A stretch of 43,033 nt of DNA from an uncultured Oscillospiraceae bacterium (GTDB taxonomy: Bacteria > Bacillota > Clostridia > Oscillospirales > Oscillospiraceae), in contig CAKTOJ010000004.1 of assembly GCA_934589665.1 (NCBI GenBank), positions 1 to 43,033 on the forward strand, in the 5' to 3' direction. Below are positions 2,091 through 11,550 of the stretch, one piece after another (positions within the stretch are counted from its first letter, which is position 1; each line of letters begins with the position of its first letter). The position numbers and the translations under genes are program-made. The notes below the pieces were generated by a model that was not told the DNA's origin, made no database searches, and saw only the letters and a program-made list of their open reading frames with translations.

Positions 2091-3041
2091 ATGAAAGCAC
2101 TGATTATCGATAACGTATCGAGCAAGATCGCCGCAACGCTGGAAAAGAACGGCGTGGAGGTCGAGACCCATGTCATGCCCGGCGCCGAGAAGCTCACCGA
2201 AATGATCGGCGATGTGGACATTCTGGTCATGCGTGTGCTGCCCCCGATCAACAAGACGATCCTCGACGCAGCCAAGCAGCTCAAGCTGATCGCTGTTTGC
2301 AGCGTCGGCACCGCCCACATCGATCTGGCCTATGCCAAGGAGAAGGGCATTTCCGTCATCAACGCCCCCGGCGCGAGCGCGAACTCGGTCGCAGAGCTTG
2401 CTCTGTGCAAGATGCTCGAGTTGAGCAAGCACACGGTCGCTGCCCATCAGGAGGTCACCGGCAAGCGCATCTGGGAGAAAAACCACTTTATCGGCCATGA
2501 GCTGCGCGGCCGCACGCTCGGCGTGATCGGCTTCGGCCGGATCGGCAAGCGCGTTGCCCAGCTCGCCACGGCGTTCGGCATGCGCATCCTTGCCTACGAT
2601 CCCTACCTGACTGCCGAGCAGTGCGCAGCTGCCGGCGCTGAAAAGATGGACAAGAAGGAGTTCCTCCAGACCGCGGACATCTTCACGATCCAACTGCCCC
2701 TCACCCCGGAGACCAACAACCTCATCACCTTCGAGGACATCGACCTGATGAAGCAGGGCGCCATCGTCATCAACATGAGCCGCGGCGGCGTGCTCAACGA
2801 GGAAGCCGCCGCGCAGGGCCTGCGCTCCGGTAAGCTCGCGGGCGTCGGCGTGGACGTTCTCTCCGGCGAACTGGCCGACATCAAGGCGAACGCCGCCATC
2901 TCCTCTCCCCTGTTCGAGACGGATGCGGAGTATGTCGTCACCCCGCACATCGGTGCGTGCACCGTTGAGGCACAGGAGGCCATCGGCGAGATGGTCAGCA
3001 ACGAGATCTGCGAGTTCTTTGGCTGGGCCAAGGCGTTCTAA
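2091..3041 (+). CDS. D-2-hydroxyacid dehydrogenase, NAD-dependent (SerA/glyoxylate reductase-like)
   Basis: A 316-residue member of the D-isomer-specific 2-hydroxyacid dehydrogenase family, which reduces 2-keto acids to D-2-hydroxy acids or the reverse with NAD(P). The Rossmann motif GFGRIG sits at 147-152. The substrate-anchoring Arg lies in NMSRGGV (Arg231), a Glu follows in VLSGELAD (where most members have EEP), and the catalytic His is His286 in TPHIGACT. There is no C-terminal ACT domain, so it is not full-length phosphoglycerate dehydrogenase; length matches the short SerA, hydroxypyruvate and D-lactate types. Start 2091 is chosen over 2088 because AAAGGAG ends six bases before it. Substrate is unknown. 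The LysR gene immediately upstream is the likely regulator. Confidence 0.9.
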   Translation: MKALIIDNVSSKIAATLEKNGVEVETHVMPGAEKLTEMIGDVDILVMRVLPPINKTILDAAKQLKLIAVCSVGTAHIDLAYAKEKGISVINAPGASANSVAELALCKMLELSKHTVAAHQEVTGKRIWEKNHFIGHELRGRTLGVIGFGRIGKRVAQLATAFGMRILAYDPYLTAEQCAAAGAEKMDKKEFLQTADIFTIQLPLTPETNNLITFEDIDLMKQGAIVINMSRGGVLNEEAAAQGLRSGKLAGVGVDVLSGELADIKANAAISSPLFETDAEYVVTPHIGACTVEAQEAIGEMVSNEICEFFGWAKAF

Positions 3042-3082
3042 GCTTTTCCCGCCGGTCCGCATGTTTCCATATTCTTTCTAAT

Positions 3083-3121
3083 AAAACAAGCCCCGAAGCT
3101 TCCGACTTCGGGGCTTGTTTT
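3083..3121. terminator. Bidirectional terminator between convergent genes
   Basis: A perfect 16-bp inverted repeat with a 7-base loop, core AAGCCCCGAAG / CTTCGGGGCTT, flanked by A and T runs. It serves the dehydrogenase on the plus strand and the NSS transporter on the minus strand. Confidence 0.93.
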
Positions 3122-3135
3122 TCCATATTGACCGC

Positions 3136-4557
3136 TCAGCGGAAGATATAGTTTCCAAGGCCGGTGGAGGTCAGGAACAAAATGAGCATGACCACCGGCA
3201 CGACATAACGCATCATCACGCTGTAAAGACGCGCACGTCCAAAGTGCTCGCCATTCTTCTCGACCTCGTCGATGATCCACTTCGGACCCACGACCCAGCC
3301 GATAAGAATGCTTGTGAGCAGGCTGATAAAGGGCATGAGGAAGCTGTTGCTGATATAGTCCATCACGTCAAGAAGCTGCGCGACAGAGCCGTTGGGCAGA
3401 GGCAGCTCAAAATAGAGCACGTTATAGCCGAGGCAGATGAGCACCGCCGTGACAAGGGAATAGATGCCGACCAGCGCGCACATCTCCTTGCGGCTCTTGT
3501 GGAAAATCTCCATGCAGTTGGATACCAGCGTCTCCAACACGGACACACAGCTCGTCAGCGCCGCGAAACCGAGCGCGAGGAAGAACACCAGACCGACAGC
3601 GCGTCCCACGCCGCCCATCGCCGCAAAGACCTTCGGCAGGCTGATGAACGTCAGGCTCGGGCCGTGGGCCATGCCCTCGGTGCCGAGGAACACATACACG
3701 GCGGGAAGGATCATAAGACCCGCGAGGAACGCCGCGCCGGTATCAAAAATTTCGATCTGATCGTTGGCGCGGTTGAGGTCCACCTCATCCTTGACATAGC
3801 TGCCGTAGGTGATCATAATTCCCATGCTGACGCTCAGGGAGAAGAAAAGCTGGCTCATCGCGTCAAGCACGACATTCAAAAAGCGCTGGACGGTCATGCC
3901 GGTAAAATCGGGCCTGAGATACAGCACCAGCCCCTGCATACCGGTGCGGGTCACGCCGTTTTCGTCCGTGCGGGAGAGGGTGAGGGAAAAGGCCGCGATA
4001 CCGATGATGAGCAGCAGAAGGCCCGGCATGATATAGCGGGAATACTTTTCAATTCCTTTTTCCACACCGCAGTAGACCACCCAGGCCGTCAGCGACAAAA
4101 AGAGCAGCATGAACACGATCGGCGAGACGGATGAGGTGATAAACGAGGTAAAGAAGCCATCCTGCGCCGCCTGTGTCCCATCCGAGGTGAGGTAGACGGC
4201 AAAATACTTCACGATCCAGCCGCCGATGACCGAATAGTAGGTCATAATGAGCGTCGGCACCAGAAACGTCAGGTAGCCGAGAAACTTCCATTTCTTATTC
4301 AGCGTCGCAAACGCGTTGAGCGCATTCTGCTTGGTGCGGCGGCCGATGGCCACGTCCGTGGTCAGCAGCACGAAGCCGAACGTCAGCACGAGGACCAGAT
4401 AGACCAGAAGGAACAGTCCGCCGCCGTCCTTTGCGCACAGATAAGGGAAGCGCCAGATATTGCCGACGCCCACGGCACTGCCGGCCGCCGCCAGCACAAA
4501 GCCAAGGGAACCGCTGAAGCTGTTGTTCTCTTTCATCTCTTCAAGCTCTTCTTTCAT
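3136..4557 (-). CDS. Sodium-dependent transporter of the neurotransmitter:sodium symporter (NSS/SNF) family
   Basis: A 473-residue integral membrane protein with the NSS hallmark in the first membrane helix, GSAVGVGNIWRFPYL (about residues 27-41), which forms part of the sodium and substrate site in LeuT-type proteins. It has about eleven or twelve membrane segments, as expected for bacterial members. Characterised bacterial relatives take up amino acids with sodium; the substrate here is inferred only as an amino acid or related amine. The start is uncertain: 4557 has no good ribosome binding site, while the in-frame ATG at 4536 has AGAAGAG nine bases upstream and yields the typical MKENNSFSGSLGF beginning. 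It is divergent from an XRE regulator and shares an intergenic region with a perfect inverted repeat, suggesting local control. Confidence 0.92.
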   Translation of the reverse strand: MKEELEEMKENNSFSGSLGFVLAAAGSAVGVGNIWRFPYLCAKDGGGLFLLVYLVLVLTFGFVLLTTDVAIGRRTKQNALNAFATLNKKWKFLGYLTFLVPTLIMTYYSVIGGWIVKYFAVYLTSDGTQAAQDGFFTSFITSSVSPIVFMLLFLSLTAWVVYCGVEKGIEKYSRYIMPGLLLLIIGIAAFSLTLSRTDENGVTRTGMQGLVLYLRPDFTGMTVQRFLNVVLDAMSQLFFSLSVSMGIMITYGSYVKDEVDLNRANDQIEIFDTGAAFLAGLMILPAVYVFLGTEGMAHGPSLTFISLPKVFAAMGGVGRAVGLVFFLALGFAALTSCVSVLETLVSNCMEIFHKSRKEMCALVGIYSLVTAVLICLGYNVLYFELPLPNGSVAQLLDVMDYISNSFLMPFISLLTSILIGWVVGPKWIIDEVEKNGEHFGRARLYSVMMRYVVPVVMLILFLTSTGLGNYIFR

Positions 4558-4583
4558 AATGTATTTTCTGTTTACAAGGGGCT

Positions 4584-4611
4584 ATTGTAACAGAAAGAAA
4601 AATGACTGCAA
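4584..4611 (-). promoter_or_regulatory. Promoter of the NSS transporter
   Basis: Minus-strand TTGCAG (4611-4606), 16 bases, TACAAT (4589-4584). The predicted start of transcription is about 20 bases before the first ATG, so the leader is very short. Confidence 0.5.
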
Positions 4612-4618
4612 GTTTTGA

Positions 4619-4639
4619 AAATTTCGCTTTGCGAAATTT
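4619..4639. promoter_or_regulatory. Perfect 9-3-9 inverted repeat, candidate XRE operator
   Basis: AAATTTCGC-TTT-GCGAAATTT lies between the two divergent promoters, just upstream of the -35 element for the transporter and about 27 bases upstream of the -35 element for the regulator gene. A related half-site, TTTGCAAAT, follows at about 4642-4650. Position and symmetry suit a dimeric helix-turn-helix repressor; it could also form an RNA hairpin, but it has no T run. Confidence 0.5.
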
Positions 4640-4665
4640 ATTTTGCAAATAGTTTCTTAAAAGAA

Positions 4666-4694
4666 TATACTTTTGCTTTTTCCTGTGCTATAAT
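4666..4694 (+). promoter_or_regulatory. Extended -10 promoter of the XRE regulator gene
   Basis: TATACT (4666-4671), 17 bases, then TATAAT (4689-4694) preceded by TGTGC, giving an extended -10 TGCTATAAT. The stretch TTTCCTGTGCTATA recurs almost identically in the RNase J promoter at 29654-29667. Confidence 0.75.
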
Positions 4695-4745
4695 CTTTCT
4701 TACTCTCAGGATTTTTGAAAAAAGGATATTTAATGGAAACAAATC

Positions 4746-5477
4746 ATGGACGACATCAATCGCTTTACCGGTGCTCAAATCCGCAAATACCGCAAGGCCT
4801 GCCGCATGACGCTCCAGCAGCTGGCCGACGCCATTCATAAAAGCCGCGCAACGGTATGCAAATATGAAAACGGCGAGATTTCCGTCGACATCGCAACGCT
4901 TTATGAGATCAGTCAGGCTCTTCAGGTCTCGCTTGCCCGGCTGACAAGCTATCACGCCCCCGCGCCGCAGCCCGCGCCGCCCACCGTCGGTATTGTGCAG
5001 AAAAGCCCGTTCTTTCAGGCCAAGCGGCTCTACTTTTATTTCTATGACGGGCGCTACGAGCGTCTCAAGGACGGCATCATCGACATCCACGCGCGCGAGG
5101 AGCAGCCCGGCACCTATGAGGCCAGCTTCACGCTCTCGTCGATCTCCGGCAACGGCCGCAGCAGCGAATTGTACTTCACCGGCAATGTGCTCTACAGCGA
5201 TATGCTCATCCGCTTCACCTTCGTCAACCAGTTCAACCCGCTCGAAGAGGATCTGCTCTATATCTTTAACCCTCTCGAGATGCGCAACTTCACCGACGGG
5301 CTTCTGTGCGGTATCTCCAGCGCCGACCTGATGCCCTGCGCGTTCCGCTGTCTTGTCACGCTCACACCGCAGCCGCTCGACGAAAGCCTGCGCGAGCGTC
5401 TGCTCTTTTCCCCCGATGAGCTGCGCCGCTGGGCCAAGCTCAACATGCTCCTTGTCGGCAACCGCAGCGAGGGATGA
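4746..5477 (+). CDS. XRE-family helix-turn-helix transcriptional regulator
   Basis: A 243-residue protein. Residues 7-66 are a typical HTH_3 domain: TGAQIRKYRKACRMTLQQLA, then SRATVCKYENGEISVDIATL. A Pro-rich hinge (about 76-84) leads to a C-terminal domain of about 160 residues, rich in aromatic and beta-strand-like sequence (RLYFYFYDGRYERL), which I do not recognise; it may sense a ligand or dimerise. The start is odd: the only in-frame start is ATG 4746, yet the strong Shine-Dalgarno sequence AAAAAAGGA at 4718-4726 is ideally spaced for the out-of-frame ATG at 4733, which opens a 35-codon frame ending at 4840. The gene is divergent from the NSS transporter and is its likely regulator. Confidence 0.85.
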   Translation: MDDINRFTGAQIRKYRKACRMTLQQLADAIHKSRATVCKYENGEISVDIATLYEISQALQVSLARLTSYHAPAPQPAPPTVGIVQKSPFFQAKRLYFYFYDGRYERLKDGIIDIHAREEQPGTYEASFTLSSISGNGRSSELYFTGNVLYSDMLIRFTFVNQFNPLEEDLLYIFNPLEMRNFTDGLLCGISSADLMPCAFRCLVTLTPQPLDESLRERLLFSPDELRRWAKLNMLLVGNRSEG

Positions 5478-5580
5478 ATGCTGCCGCAGGCGGGATACAC
5501 AAGCACCGTGCAGCGTTTTTGGTGAAACAGTCTAATGCCGCCGCTCCGGTCGCAGGTTCGCTCTATATGCCGCGCAGCAT

Positions 5581-5601
5581 GTTATAGTTTCATCCTATAA
5601 C
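5581..5601. promoter_or_regulatory. Inverted repeat resembling a MET-box / LysR-type operator upstream of metQNI
   Basis: A perfect GTTATAG-N7-CTATAAC. Its core TATAGTTTCATCCTATA matches 15 of 17 positions of the MET-box (TATAGTTTSAAACTATA) described for LysR-type methionine regulators of streptococci. It is centred about 65 bases before the predicted transcription start, the usual recognition site for LysR-type activators. The rest of 5478-5580 holds no gene; GCTGC (5481) and GCAGC (5510) followed by GTTTTT could be a weak terminator for the XRE gene. Confidence 0.6.
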
Positions 5602-5620
5602 CTACTATTCTTACGGCGTA

Positions 5621-5650
5621 TTGGACAAATGCCGCACCATCGTGTATAAC
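5621..5650 (+). promoter_or_regulatory. Promoter of the metQNI operon
   Basis: TGGACA (5622-5627), 17 bases, TATAAC (5645-5650); the -35 could also be read as TTGGAC with an 18-base spacer. It lies between the inverted repeat and the leader peptide. Confidence 0.6.
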
Positions 5651-5683
5651 TAACAGCGTCCCAAGCAAAGGAGGTCAAAACCA

Positions 5684-5752
5684 ATGCGAATGATTTGGAA
5701 AGAACGAATGTGTCCGCGATCTTTCCTCTCCCGCATGAGCGGTCGAATGTGA
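5684..5752 (+). CDS. Methionine-rich leader peptide (22 residues) upstream of metQ
   Basis: A short frame with a near-perfect ribosome binding site, AAAGGAGGT at 5667-5675, nine bases before ATG 5684. It encodes 22 residues beginning MRMIWKERMC and ending MSGRM. Five of the 22 codons are ATG (positions 1, 3, 9, 18 and 22), and there is one Cys. The stop codon lies inside a hairpin (5739-5756). A Met-rich leader directly before a methionine importer suggests ribosome-mediated control by charged tRNA-Met, but this is inference: no strong terminator follows, so the effect could be on RNA folding or translation further down. It could alternatively be a relic of another small gene. Confidence 0.6.
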   Translation: MRMIWKERMCPRSFLSRMSGRM

Positions 5753-5761
5753 CCGCGGATC
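5706..5761 (+). promoter_or_regulatory. Direct repeat with mutually exclusive hairpins in the metQ leader
   Basis: Two near-identical copies, GAATGTGTCCGCGATC (5706-5721) and GAATGTGACCGCGGATC (5745-5761), overlap the end of the leader peptide. GCGGTC (5739-5744) can pair with GACCGC (5751-5756). Alternatively GTCCGCG (5712-5718) can pair with CGCGGAT (5754-5760). The two helices share bases 5754-5756 and cannot coexist, which is the usual geometry of an attenuator. The A-rich stretch 5762-5810 before metQ shows nothing further. Confidence 0.5.
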
Positions 5762-5823
5762 ACAGCGAAGCAACTCGTTCAAAAAATAAAATTTAAAGAT
5801 AAAAAGAAAAGGATGATATGATC

Positions 5824-6702
5824 ATGAAAAAGCTTCTCTCTCTTGCCCTTGCGGCATCTCTCGCGCTCGGTATTCTCTCCGGCTGCGGCAGCAAGGATGC
5901 TGCCTCCGACAACAGCGGCGACGCGCAGCAGCCCTCCCTCCAGATCGCCGTTCCCAACGACACCACCAACGAGGCCCGCGCCCTGCTGCTGCTTGAGGCC
6001 AACGGCATCATCAAGCTCAAGGACGGCGCCGGCATCACTGCCACCAAGAACGACATTGCCGAGAATCCCCACAATGTCGAGATCGTCGAGGCTGAGGCCG
6101 CGCAGCTCCCCAACATCCTGCAGGATGTCGACTACGCCGTTATCAACTCCAACTACGCCATCAACGCCAGCCTGAACCCCGTGTCCGACTCTCTGGCCAT
6201 TGAGGGTTCCTCCTCCGCTTACGCCAACATCCTCGCTGTCAAGGAAGGCAACGAAACTTCTCCCAAGACCCTTGCGCTGCTCGCCGCTCTGGAGAGCCAG
6301 CAGGTCGCCGACTACATCGCTGAGACCTACGACGGCGCGGTCGTGAGCACCGTTGACAACCCCGGTGACGGCTATGACGCCTCCGTTGACTACGACGCGC
6401 TCGCCGGCGAGACCATCTCCGTTGCCGCCTCCCCCACGCCCCACGGCGAGATCCTCGAGATCGTCAAGGAGATCCTTGCCGTCAAGGACATCACCCTCGA
6501 TATTCAGATCTTCAACGACTATGTTGTGCCCAACACAGTTGTTGAGGACGGCACGATCGATGCCAACTACTTCCAGCACACTCCGTATCTTGACGACTTC
6601 AATAAGGAGAACGGTACTCACATCGTCTCCGTCGGCGCCATCCACGTCGAGCCCATGGGTCTCTACGGCGGCAAGCAGTCCTCTCTGGACGCCCTGAAGT
6701 AA
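5824..6702 (+). CDS. metQ: Methionine-binding lipoprotein MetQ (NlpA family) with circularly permuted domain order
   Basis: A 292-residue lipoprotein: signal peptide with lipobox LSGC (Cys21), then an Asp/Ser-rich tether to about 37. In ordinary MetQ the mature chain starts with the VAASPxPHAEIL strand and reaches VPNDxTNEARALLLL only after about 110 residues. Here VPNDTTNEARALLLLE is at 43-58, followed by ENPHNVEIVEAEAAQLP and VINSNYA, and YDGAVVS (169-175) marks the canonical C-terminus. An acidic linker (176-197) then leads to ISVAASPTPHGEIL (198-211), DANYFQHTPYLDDF (246-259) and the end at SLDALK. All family ligand-site motifs (VPNDxTN, NxNYA, FQHxPYL) are kept, so function is probably intact. 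Start 5824 fits the AAAGGA spacing better than 5818. It is the first structural gene of metQNI. Confidence 0.95.
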   Translation: MKKLLSLALAASLALGILSGCGSKDAASDNSGDAQQPSLQIAVPNDTTNEARALLLLEANGIIKLKDGAGITATKNDIAENPHNVEIVEAEAAQLPNILQDVDYAVINSNYAINASLNPVSDSLAIEGSSSAYANILAVKEGNETSPKTLALLAALESQQVADYIAETYDGAVVSTVDNPGDGYDASVDYDALAGETISVAASPTPHGEILEIVKEILAVKDITLDIQIFNDYVVPNTVVEDGTIDANYFQHTPYLDDFNKENGTHIVSVGAIHVEPMGLYGGKQSSLDALK

Positions 6703-6729
6703 AAAAGATATGAAAGGAGGAGAAATTCC

Positions 6730-7726
<997 letters not shown>

Positions 7727-7737
<11 letters not shown>

Positions 7738-8434
7738 TCTTTTCTCCCCCAAGTCCATCGCCGAGCTGACGGCGGCTTTGCAAACGCAGTTCCTCCCCGC
7801 GATATGGGAGACCTTCTATGTCACTGTGCTCTCCACTGTGCTGGCAACGGTGATCGGTCTGCCGCTTGGCGTGCTGCTGGTCGCGGGCGAGAAAAACGGC
7901 GTGCTGCCGCTTCCCCGCTGGCTGATGAGCGTGCTGAACGTTATCATCAACCTCTTGCGCTCCATTCCGTTCCTCATCCTGATGATCATGGTCTTCCCGC
8001 TCTCGCGCCTTATCATCGGCACGACCGTCGGCACCACCGCCACCATCGTTCCGCTCGTCGTTGCGGCCTTCCCCTTTGTCGCGCGTCTGGTGGAAAGCAG
8101 TCTGCGCGAGGTTGACCCCAATATCATTGAGGCCGCGCAGAGCATGGGCGCAACGCCCATGCAGATTATCTGCAAGGTAATGATCCCGGAAAGCGTTCCC
8201 TCGCTGCTCCAGAACTTCACCATCGCGCTTACGACCATTCTCGGCTATTCGGCCATGAGCGGCATCATCGGCGGCGGCGGCCTCGGCAAAATTGCCATCG
8301 ACTACGGCTACTACCGTTATAAGTATCTGGTAATGTACGCGGCAGTCGTTCTGCTTATCCTGCTCGTGCAGGTATTCCAGAGCGTCGGTACAAAGTTTGC
8401 CACCCGCTGCGACAAACGTCTCAAGAACCGTTGA
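7727..8434 (+). CDS. metI: Methionine ABC importer permease MetI
   Basis: A 235-residue permease with five predicted membrane helices and the EAA coupling motif EAAQSMGATPMQIICKVMIP (about 144-163), which contacts MetN. The family-typical IIGGGGLGKIAIDYGYYRY follows near the C-terminus. The start overlaps the end of metN by 11 bases, with GAGGTGAG just upstream, and the stop TGA overlaps a possible TTG start of mnmA. With metN and metQ it forms a complete D/L-methionine uptake system of the MUT type. Confidence 0.96.
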
Positions 8435-8451
8435 AAGCAATAAATATCACC

Positions 8452-9537
8452 ATGAACAACAAAGCATTGATCGCAATGAGCGGCGGCGTGGATTCGAGCG
8501 TCGCCGCTCTCCTCATGAAGCGCCGGGGCTACGAGTGCATCGGCGCGACCATGAAGCTCTTTTCCAACGATGACGTCGGTGTGTCCCGCGAGCACTCCTG
8601 CTGCTCGCTCGACGATGTGGAGGACGCTCGCAGCGTCGCCTACACGCTCGGGATGCCTTACTACGTTTTTAATTTCGCTGACCGCTTCCGCGAAGAGGTT
8701 ATTGACCGCTTCGTCTCGGCCTACGAGCACGGTGAAACGCCGAATCCCTGCATTGAATGCAACCGTTTCCTCAAATTCGACAAGCTCTTCCTCCGCGCGC
8801 AGGAGCTCGGCATCGATCATGTCGTCACCGGACACTACGCCCGCATCGACTACGACGCGGAAAGCGGGCGCTGGCAGCTGCTTCGCTCGCTCAATGCCGA
8901 CAAGGATCAGAGCTATGTGCTCTATCCCATGACGCAGGAGCAGCTGGCTCACACGCTCTTTCCCCTCGCCGACCTCACCAAGGATGAGGTGCGTGCGCTG
9001 GCGGAGGAGGCCGGCTTCCTGAACGCAAGAAAGCATGACAGTCAGGATATCTGCTTCGTCCAATCCGGCGGCTATGCTGACTTTATTGAAAGCTACACCG
9101 GCCGGGTGAGTCCGCCGGGCGATTTTCTTGACACAGACGGCCATGTGATCGGCCGGCACAAGGGCATCATCCGCTACACGATCGGCCAGCGCCGCGCGCT
9201 CGGCATCTCATTTGACGAGCCGCACTATGTCTGTGCCATCGATCCGGTGCGAAACACGGTAACGCTCGGACTGGAGCGCGACTTATATGCCCGCACCGTC
9301 TACGTCGGGCAGCTCAATCTTATCTCCGTACCGGAGCTGACCGCGCCCATGCGCGTTAAGGCCAAGGTCCGCTACCGCGGACGCGAGCAGTGGGCCACCG
9401 CTGTACAGGAGGCTCCTGACCGCATCCGGCTCGTCTTTGACGAGCCGCAGCGCGCTGTCACGCGCGGTCAGTCCGCTGTATTCTACGACGGCGAGGTCGT
9501 CGTCGGCGGCGGAACAATCACCGGCAGTGAAACATAA
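8452..9537 (+). CDS. mnmA: tRNA-specific 2-thiouridylase MnmA
   Basis: A 361-residue enzyme that installs sulfur at C2 of wobble U34 in tRNA Lys, Glu and Gln. The ATP-pyrophosphatase loop is SGGVDSS (10-16). The catalytic cysteine pair is Cys100 in NPCIECN and Cys201 in CFVQSGGY; Cys103 is the extra family cysteine. A C-terminal beta-barrel (KAKVRYRGREQWA...) completes the usual domain order. Start 8452 (ATG) gives the normal MNNKALIAMSGG beginning; TTG 8431, overlapping the metI stop, is an alternative, and neither has a strong ribosome binding site, which suggests translational coupling to metI. Placement behind methionine uptake links it to sulfur supply, since its sulfur comes from cysteine. 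Confidence 0.96.
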   Translation: MNNKALIAMSGGVDSSVAALLMKRRGYECIGATMKLFSNDDVGVSREHSCCSLDDVEDARSVAYTLGMPYYVFNFADRFREEVIDRFVSAYEHGETPNPCIECNRFLKFDKLFLRAQELGIDHVVTGHYARIDYDAESGRWQLLRSLNADKDQSYVLYPMTQEQLAHTLFPLADLTKDEVRALAEEAGFLNARKHDSQDICFVQSGGYADFIESYTGRVSPPGDFLDTDGHVIGRHKGIIRYTIGQRRALGISFDEPHYVCAIDPVRNTVTLGLERDLYARTVYVGQLNLISVPELTAPMRVKAKVRYRGREQWATAVQEAPDRIRLVFDEPQRAVTRGQSAVFYDGEVVVGGGTITGSET

Positions 9538-9549
9538 TAACATGGCAGA

Positions 9550-9578
9550 GGCCGCACCCGAAGGGTGCGGCCCTTTTT
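9550..9578 (+). terminator. Terminator of the metQNI-mnmA operon
   Basis: A perfect 10-bp stem, GGCCGCACCC / GGGTGCGGCC, with loop GAA, followed by CTTTTT. Confidence 0.95.
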
Positions 9579-9631
9579 CATCCCGCAAACTGCAAAAATT
9601 CAAAAAATATACAACAATCCTCCCTTTTTCG

Positions 9632-9640
9632 TGCTATAAT
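9632..9640 (+). promoter_or_regulatory. Extended -10 promoter of htpG
   Basis: TGCTATAAT with no recognisable -35 at 17 bases; a TATACA lies too far upstream (21-base gap). I see no CIRCE element or other heat-shock operator in 9579-9672. Confidence 0.65.
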
Positions 9641-9672
9641 AGTCTCAAATAATCCAAAGGAGATGCTGCCTT

Positions 9673-11550
9673 ATGGCAAAGAAACAATTCAAAGCAGAGT
9701 CCAAGCGTCTGCTCGACCTGATGGTCAACTCGATCTACACGCACAGAGAGATTTTCCTGCGTGAGATCATCTCGAACGCGAGCGACGCAATCGACAAGCT
9801 CTGCTACCTCTCGTTGACGGACGACAAGGTCGGTCTGGACCGCGGCGACTTCCGCATCGTGCTCACCGCCGACAAGGACGCGCGCACGCTGACCGTGAGC
9901 GACAACGGCATCGGCATGAGCCGCGATGAGTTGGAAAACAACCTCGGCGTGATCGCCTCCTCCGGCTCCTACAAGTTCCGTCAGGAGGCCGAGCAGAAAG
10001 ACGATATCGACATCATCGGTCAGTTCGGCGTTGGCTTTTATTCCGCGTTTATGGTTGCCGACAATATTACGGTCGTAACGAAGAAATATGGCGAGGAGAC
10101 GGCCTATCAGTGGCAGTCCTTCGGCGCAGACGGCTACACCGTCAGCGAATGTGAAAAGGACACGGTCGGTACCGACGTCATTATGCATATCAAGCCCGAC
10201 ACGGACGAGGAAAAGTATTCCGAGTATCTCGACGGCTACCGTCTCTATGAGCTGGTCAAGAAATATTCCGATTACATCCGCTACCCCATCCGGATGCTGC
10301 GCCCGACACGCAAGATCAAGGATGGCAGCGATCCTGAAAAGCCGGAGTACGAGTACGTTGACGAAATGACGACGGTCAACTCCATGATCCCGCTCTGGCA
10401 GAAGCCGAAGAGCGAGGTTAAGGACGAGGAATATGAAAAATTCTACCAGTCCATCGCCCACGCCTTTGATAAGCCCCAGCGCGTCATCACCGCAAGTGTC
10501 GAGGGCAGCGTGACCTACAAGGCGCTGCTCTTCATCCCCTCTCAGCGGCCCATGGACTTTTACAGTGAGGGCTATGAAAAGGGGCTTCAGCTCTATTCCG
10601 CCGGCGTGATGATCATGGATCACTGCGACGCACTGCTGCCGGACTATCTGCGCTTTGTGCGCGGCGTAGTCGACTCCCCCGACCTGAGTTTGAACATCTC
10701 GCGTGAGCTGCTCCAGCACGACCGCCAGCTCAAGGTCATTGGGAACAATCTGGAAAAGAAGGTGCGCGGCGATCTGGAAAAGCTCCTGCGCGACGACCGC
10801 GCGGGCTACGAGCAGTTCTATGAAAACTTCGGCCGCGCCATCAGCTTCGGCATTGCCGGTCAAGGCGGCGAGACGCGTAGGGAGGCCTTGCAGGATCTGC
10901 TGCTGTTCTACTCCTCGACGGAAAAGAAGCTTGTCACACTGCGCGAGTATGCCGACCGCATGCCGGAGAGCCAGAAGTACATCTACTTCGCCGCGGGCGA
11001 GAGCATCTCGGCCATCGACCATCTGCCGCAGACGGAGCTTTTGAAGGAAAAGAATTATGAGATTCTCTACCTGACCGGTGAGACGGATGAGTTCGCCCTT
11101 CAGGTGCTCGGCAAGTATGCCGACCATGAGTTCCGCTCCATCATCGATGGCGAGCTTGATCTCGACGGCGGGGAAAAGCAGGATATTGACGAAAAGCCCG
11201 AGCTGATGCAGTTCGTCAAGGAGGTCCTCGGCGATAAGATCAAGGAAGCCAAGGCCTCCCGCCGCCTCAAGACGCACCCTGTCTGCATGACCGCCGGCGA
11301 GGGCTTCAGCTTTGAGATGGAAAAATACTTCAAGAACTTCCAGACGCCCATGCCCGTCAAGGCCGACCGCATCCTTGAGCTCAATACCGCGCATCCCGCC
11401 GTTCAGGCCATGGAGCAGGCCATGACGAGTGACCGTGAAAAGGCGGAGGTGTACGCAAAGCTCCTCTATGATCAGGCGCTGCTCATTGCCGGCCTGCCGC
11501 TGGAGGATCCGAGCGAATACACTGACCTCGTTGCCGGACTGATGAAGTAA
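9673..11550 (+). CDS. htpG: Molecular chaperone HtpG (Hsp90)
   Basis: A 625-residue bacterial Hsp90. The N-terminal ATPase domain shows the GHKL motifs EIISNASDAIDKL (Glu and Asn for ATP and Mg), DNGIGM and GQFGVGFYSAFMVAD. The middle domain has FVRGVVDSPDLSLNISRELL with the conserved Arg, and the C-terminal dimerisation region follows to TDLVAGLMK. Length is in the family range. AAAGGAG lies ten bases before ATG 9673. The protein folds or remodels client proteins in the cytosol with ATP. It is monocistronic or co-transcribed with the lipoprotein gene 40 bases downstream, since no terminator separates them. Confidence 0.98.
   Translation: MAKKQFKAESKRLLDLMVNSIYTHREIFLREIISNASDAIDKLCYLSLTDDKVGLDRGDFRIVLTADKDARTLTVSDNGIGMSRDELENNLGVIASSGSYKFRQEAEQKDDIDIIGQFGVGFYSAFMVADNITVVTKKYGEETAYQWQSFGADGYTVSECEKDTVGTDVIMHIKPDTDEEKYSEYLDGYRLYELVKKYSDYIRYPIRMLRPTRKIKDGSDPEKPEYEYVDEMTTVNSMIPLWQKPKSEVKDEEYEKFYQSIAHAFDKPQRVITASVEGSVTYKALLFIPSQRPMDFYSEGYEKGLQLYSAGVMIMDHCDALLPDYLRFVRGVVDSPDLSLNISRELLQHDRQLKVIGNNLEKKVRGDLEKLLRDDRAGYEQFYENFGRAISFGIAGQGGETRREALQDLLLFYSSTEKKLVTLREYADRMPESQKYIYFAAGESISAIDHLPQTELLKEKNYEILYLTGETDEFALQVLGKYADHEFRSIIDGELDLDGGEKQDIDEKPELMQFVKEVLGDKIKEAKASRRLKTHPVCMTAGEGFSFEMEKYFKNFQTPMPVKADRILELNTAHPAVQAMEQAMTSDREKAEVYAKLLYDQALLIAGLPLEDPSEYTDLVAGLMK

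Follow-up and report, generated by a model that had tools for sequence, protein, structure and literature searches.

The permuted gene and its operon

The window analysed here is a stretch of 43,033 nucleotides of contig CAKTOJ010000004.1, from an uncultured Oscillospiraceae bacterium (assembly GCA_934589665.1). It carries a lipoprotein gene of the NlpA/MetQ family of methionine-binding proteins, directly followed in Pfam and NCBIfam profile searches by metN and metI (Table 1). A sequence-only reading had proposed that the two halves of this MetQ are swapped, with new termini opened between SLDALK and VPND, and the profile matches bear out both points. The Pfam profile PF03180 (NlpA/MetQ) matched the whole protein in two stretches (262 bits, cut-off 27, E-value 4.1e-78). 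When the halves were cut out and aligned separately, the one that comes first in the chain (5938-6345, residues 42-176) matched profile positions 99-233 (E-value 4.1e-46), and the last one (6370-6699, residues 200-294) matched positions 1-95 (E-value 3e-32). The C-terminal half thus stands first in the chain and the N-terminal half second, and the cut falls at SLDALK / VPND. Both segments lying in canonical order is thus excluded, and these E-values, together with the same order in 74 of 79 kept loci from related genomes, exclude chance. The window protein is a permuted form rather than a canonical PF03180 member. Strictly, it falls outside the canonical family on order alone, and its predicted MetQ-like working is well supported.

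The NCBIfam MetQ/NlpA models likewise matched in two stretches each, at 167 of 374 bits and 162 of 229 bits, scores below the cut-offs, as a split match would lead one to expect. All 22 relatives in the PDB gave a single listed stretch at the canonical position, and in the three alignments printed both halves are swapped relative to the window protein.

Table 1. Features of the metQ operon in the window; the sequence-only reading began the metQ gene at the ATG at 5824.
Feature	Position	Strand	Remarks
Shine-Dalgarno-like AAAGGA	5808..5813	+	10 bases ahead of ATG 5824; from the sequence
Lipoprotein open reading frame (metQ)	5818-6702	+	294 aa
Signal peptide, putative	5818..5886	+	ends in ILSGC (read by eye), with Cys23 (5884-5886) as the predicted lipidation site
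MetQ C-terminal half, now first	5941..6348	+	residues 42-177, PF03180 profile 99-234; R54, N112, N137
Linker, old C-terminus to old mature N-terminus	6349..6405	+	residues 178-196; Pfam match restarts at residue 200
MetQ N-terminal half, now last	6406..6699	+	residues 197-294, PF03180 profile 1-95; Y235, F252, H254, Y257; ends SLDALK
metN, ATPase with NIL domain, TTG start	6730..7737	+	PF00005 and PF09383; TIGR02314 348.6 bits, cut-off 499.7
metI, permease	7727..8434	+	PF00528; NF008049 204.8 bits, just below cut-off 212

In the sequence, the second ATG (5824) has the better spacing from AAAGGA. The ILSGC motif we take to be a putative lipobox. Upstream of metQ, an open reading frame at 4746-5477 (+) has by eye the look of a helix-turn-helix regulator.

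Distribution, predicted fold and probable function of the permuted form

Permuted MetQ is present in some gut bacteria and is widespread rather than peculiar to the window genome, which the sequence-only reading had no means of seeing. A genome scan gave 159 relatives, and 79 distinct loci were retained, picked for their likeness to the window protein. The C half came before the N half in 74, and the order was canonical in five (L075-L079); because the loci were picked in this way, 74/79 is no frequency. Further counts come from even draws of genomes from larger groups. In the order to which G001 belongs, 19 of the 295 genomes drawn have the permuted form (82 had any PF03180 match). The counts are 20 of 250 for its family and 3 of 398 for its phylum (with G001 included, at E-values up to 1e-30), and 13 of 197 for the order of G012, on the Eggerthellaceae side. 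At least 7 of 195 genomes in the Treponema family (G011, G403, G413, G414, G420, G467, G492) and, in the order that includes G010, at least 2 of 148 (G010, G607) also carry it; both are minimum counts, since follow-up was limited to genomes whose matches looked split. Vescimonas fastidiosa MM35 holds the gene on an 861-kb replicon, as metQ-metN-metI; among the best 20 of 183 plasmid records, the Vescimonas one spans most of the operon and the other 19 span 4-6% of the query. In the Treponema genome G009, the permuted metQ-metN-metI operon at L109 is closely preceded, on the same strand, by two metN-metI-metQ sets of canonical type. L104 (G548) encodes a 232-residue MetQ-like open reading frame matching model positions 1-48 and then 95-239, the middle of the N half being missing.

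The AlphaFold2 model of the window MetQ is confident, and it suggests that the permuted chain folds into the usual two-lobe clamp; going by this predicted model, the new order can close that fold. A linker does bridge the old ends, as had been proposed, at a length of about 20 rather than 22 residues. It is predicted to be ordered (predicted local distance difference test, pLDDT, 98 over residues 181-200), and its D184, G185, Y192, L195 and G197 are kept in at least 90% of 56 aligned permuted sequences. It is therefore not just a loose, acidic spacer.

In Neisseria MetQ, methionine is contacted by R156, N213 and N238 on one lobe and by Y81, F98, H100 and Y103 on the other (PMC6739813). The seven equivalents in the window protein (Table 1, with N110 as an alternative to N112) are invariant across the 56 aligned permuted proteins. 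In a set of 200 main-group rows each contact is conserved in at least 199 (there is a single K for R, and a single row is gapped at the four N-half sites), and the permuted Coriobacteriia keep them in 16 of 16 rows. This mapping would place the lobe for the amino and carboxyl groups first, where it bears the anchor, and the thioether lobe last. The ratio of nonsynonymous to synonymous substitution (dN/dS) was 0.125-0.239 between the window gene and eight of 10 relatives, the remaining two being saturated, which supports purifying selection on permuted metQ. The earlier view of a working gene with signal peptide, lipobox (by eye), metN and metI is supported by this selection and by the metNI operon. 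Taken together, the gene very probably encodes a functional, circularly permuted, lipid-anchored MetQ of a MetNI importer, with its lobe order exchanged, presumably by a duplication in tandem whose outer halves were then lost. Such a protein would bind methionine and pass it to MetNI while tethered through the lobe that formerly came second.

Several points weigh against this reading. MetQ, MetN and MetI of the window all score below the NCBIfam curated cut-offs; a search for known regulatory RNAs in 3000-10000 gave only a chance-level His_leader match (3081-3203, E-value 0.59), and so no methionine regulatory RNA; the Neisseria contacts were transferred by motif and spacing; and structural alignment to MetQ entries spans one half at a time. 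The low scores and the lack of such an RNA in that interval would fit a permuted MetQ-like protein that takes a ligand other than methionine or works apart from MetNI, as would the second permuted copy in G712 (L085, in addition to L084), for which neither metN nor metI was matched within the 7.6 kb retrieved. We consider this improbable, given that all the contact equivalents are kept and metN and metI lie directly downstream. Moreover, no other PF03180 match was found in 12 of 14 permuted genomes followed (G003 and G009 additionally hold canonical ones), nor any other PF03180 protein in 19 of 19 permuted genomes of the order-wide draw. An assembly artefact, in which a false join inside the gene mimics a permutation, deserves hardly any credence. 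Database proteins of C-N-C and N-C-N make-up do hint that assemblers may join MetQ genes at conserved stretches, but the 74 loci come from separate species genomes, the V. fastidiosa MM35 replicon carries the same order, and the permuted genes fall into a supported clade whose members have a partly conserved linker in common. A join in the window gene is thus refuted by its relatives.

The three-part proteins themselves number 24 C-N-C (e.g. P0010, P0026) and 23 N-C-N (e.g. P0006, P0028) among 291 database proteins. All but three of the 47 (P0010, P0016 and P0026) come from clusters whose longest contig is below 10 kb, they are joined within or close to the conserved VPND...NEARALLLL stretch, and in some (groups of 5 and 4) one and the same third segment follows differing first segments. 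No conclusion here rests on them as duplication intermediates: they are probably assembly chimeras of canonical and permuted genes, or possibly real recombinants.

Proposed origin, possible recurrence and a candidate reversal

The duplication-and-loss route of the sequence-only reading finds its support in relatives. On this route metQ would be duplicated in tandem, the old C-terminus of one copy would be joined in frame to the mature N-terminus of the copy behind it, and the outer halves would then be lost, so that the new ends lie at the lobe boundary, with SLDELKDG on one side of the cut and VPND on the other. The linker of the Coriobacteriia protein L087 reads GTVVPLF, like the canonical C-termini GAVVPLF (L075, L127, L132), followed by a stretch that runs into TITVGASP. 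That of L100, a member of the second permutation type described below, reads GAVIASFIDADGKDIAS...DDNVIKVGAT and resembles the C-terminus GAVIPSFVDAKGNPVK plus the mature N-terminus SEDDKVIKVGAT of canonical P0240. Both linkers match the expectation for a tandem duplication whose copies were fused in frame. The linker of the main clade, to which the window gene belongs, was not recognisable in any of the 15 canonical C-termini printed, a further point against the proposed route; its fused-ends origin is for this reason argued by analogy with the other two.

More than one permutation seems to have arisen in the MetQ family. Permuted Coriobacteriia proteins (L070-L072, L080-L092) share the cut of the window protein and have other linkers; perhaps this permutation arose separately. 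In the Erysipelotrichales, a type II permutation has its cut ~40 residues further on: the chain begins NPHGYEIV, or like it, and ends ~40 residues past VPND (L100:3354-4226 (+), L101; proteins P0172-P0234, P0236-P0238), and in all 68 rows a T stands in place of the contact H100. Also in the Erysipelotrichales, L102:3268-4074 (-) encodes a divergent MetQ-like protein (~30% identical) with the same cut as the window and a longer linker. Trees were built from 89 and 90 chosen rows of 368 aligned, after 48 rows with matched spans above 275 columns had been set aside (mainly three-part proteins, plus L048, which is permuted); for the 90-row tree 19 rows, including L102, were removed by name and 20 canonical ones brought in. 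Type II forms one side of a branch in the 89-row tree (97/59).

A single permutation at this cut could instead have spread by gene transfer to the Coriobacteriia, replacing metQ in place, and we think this rather unlikely. It would account for the identical cut, and the approximately unbiased (AU) test under LG+C20 does not reject one clade (p 0.224 and 0.166), nor does the Shimodaira-Hasegawa (SH) test under LG+G4 (p 0.070); these results count against separate origins. The AU test under LG+G4 does reject it (p 0.031), both LG+G4 tests having been made with a shorter search. In the 90-row tree the permuted Coriobacteriia MetQ groups with canonical Coriobacteriia (L137, L138; 100/99), and in a quick MetN+MetI tree, which carries support from the SH-like approximate likelihood ratio test (SH-aLRT) only, MetN and MetI of these operons also group with canonical Coriobacteriia operons (SH-aLRT 99). 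Their gene order, metN-metI-metQ where metNI was found, and their linkers are likewise unlike those of the main group.

A return to canonical order may also have occurred. The proteins P0127 and P0131 are canonical in order (P0131, with 22 members on 28 contigs, the longest 234 kb, gives one Pfam stretch, 1-234), and they end in VVENPTDGYDDSVDYDALTAQSAQ and VVENPTDGYDASVDYDALSAQ, respectively, the permuted linker plus a tail resembling LDALSAQ, the end of permuted P0047. The identity of P0131 to six permuted crown proteins is 80-88% in the N half and 82-93% in the C half, against 57-67% and 60-68% for four canonical proteins; for permuted P0083 the figures are 85% (N) and 93% (C), and for L076, the best of the four canonical ones, 67% and 68%. 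Both proteins nest within the permuted clade, at a 99/87 fork with P0083 in the 89-row tree and at an open fork in the 90-row tree. A position outside the clade is not rejected (p 0.263; 0.40), which speaks against a reversal, and the case therefore rests on nested position, the identity of both halves and the linker scar. We regard P0127 and P0131 as candidates for such a return, the permuted linker being kept as a C-terminal scar. The host genome and context of P0131 were not found in 250, 197 and 6 genomes.

On balance we lean slightly towards a family that has been permuted repeatedly, perhaps reversibly, with separate same-cut origins in Clostridia, Coriobacteriia and L102, a type II origin, and the return in P0127 and P0131. 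Against this wider reading stand the many deep forks left open in both trees, the placement of L102 among long branches in the 89-row tree, the failure of type II to form one group in the 90-row tree (2 changes, fork 91/10), and the MetN+MetI tree, in which the permuted operons of Coriobacteriia do not come together as one group (3 changes; canonical L137 falls among them, 96). Since the two clamp lobes have a similar topology, a cut at their boundary would merely swap which lobe leads and bears the lipid anchor.

Relation to known binding proteins and significance

Like the MetQ/NlpA family (PF03180; solved as 4ib2, 4k3f, 4yah and 6cva), the permuted form has both profile halves, the methionine contacts, metNI partners and a putative lipobox, and it reaches 65% identity in the N half and 69% in the C half to canonical L076. 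It differs in that the halves are exchanged, the old ends are bridged by a linker of ~20 residues, and the new ends lie at the lobe boundary. In keeping with the sequence-only reading, which knew of no natural permutation in this family, no paper listed in searches of the open-licence literature of PubMed Central was, judging by its listed entry, a report of a permuted MetQ or NlpA. Fold searches gave none among the at most 50 matches listed, and absence is not shown thereby.

Permutation of binding proteins is already known, and in the natural cases that we found described it was recognised from structure where sequence identity is low (PMC4990184, PMC2395249). TpMglB-2 (Tp0684), a glucose-binding lipoprotein of treponemes and gut Gram-positives classed as 'Type Ic / Cluster Bc', is likewise a lipid-anchored binding protein that is circularly permuted in nature; unlike MetQ it has a Type I sugar-binding fold outside PF03180, and its permutation needs a fourth lobe crossing (PMC4990184). 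The window protein does not belong to that MglB family, PF03180 being its sole Pfam match at E-values up to 1. Circular-permutation relations among two-lobe binding proteins have also been described for OpuAC, ProX, molybdate-binding proteins and CysB, where, according to PMC2395249, they were seen by structure at <24% identity, whereas the MetQ case lies within one orthologous family and operon type. What sets the MetQ case apart is how closely it matches its canonical kin, together with its apparent recurrence.

The canonical loci L076, L127 and L132 share the arrangement metQ-metN-metI, and their MetNI are closely related to the MetNI of permuted Faecalibacterium and Oscillibacter. Because permuted and canonical orthologues are ~65% identical in like operons, the effects of lobe order and of the anchored lobe should be directly measurable. 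In E. coli and Neisseria, the lipid at the N-terminus of MetQ is important to how the protein contacts MetNI and stimulates it (PMC8416018), and Brautigam and colleagues suggested that the permutation of TpMglB-2 is possibly an adaptation to anchoring (PMC4990184), an idea that MetQ renders testable. Finally, the permuted Vescimonas gene is annotated simply as MetQ/NlpA family, an example of how domain-based annotation can conceal rearranged proteins.
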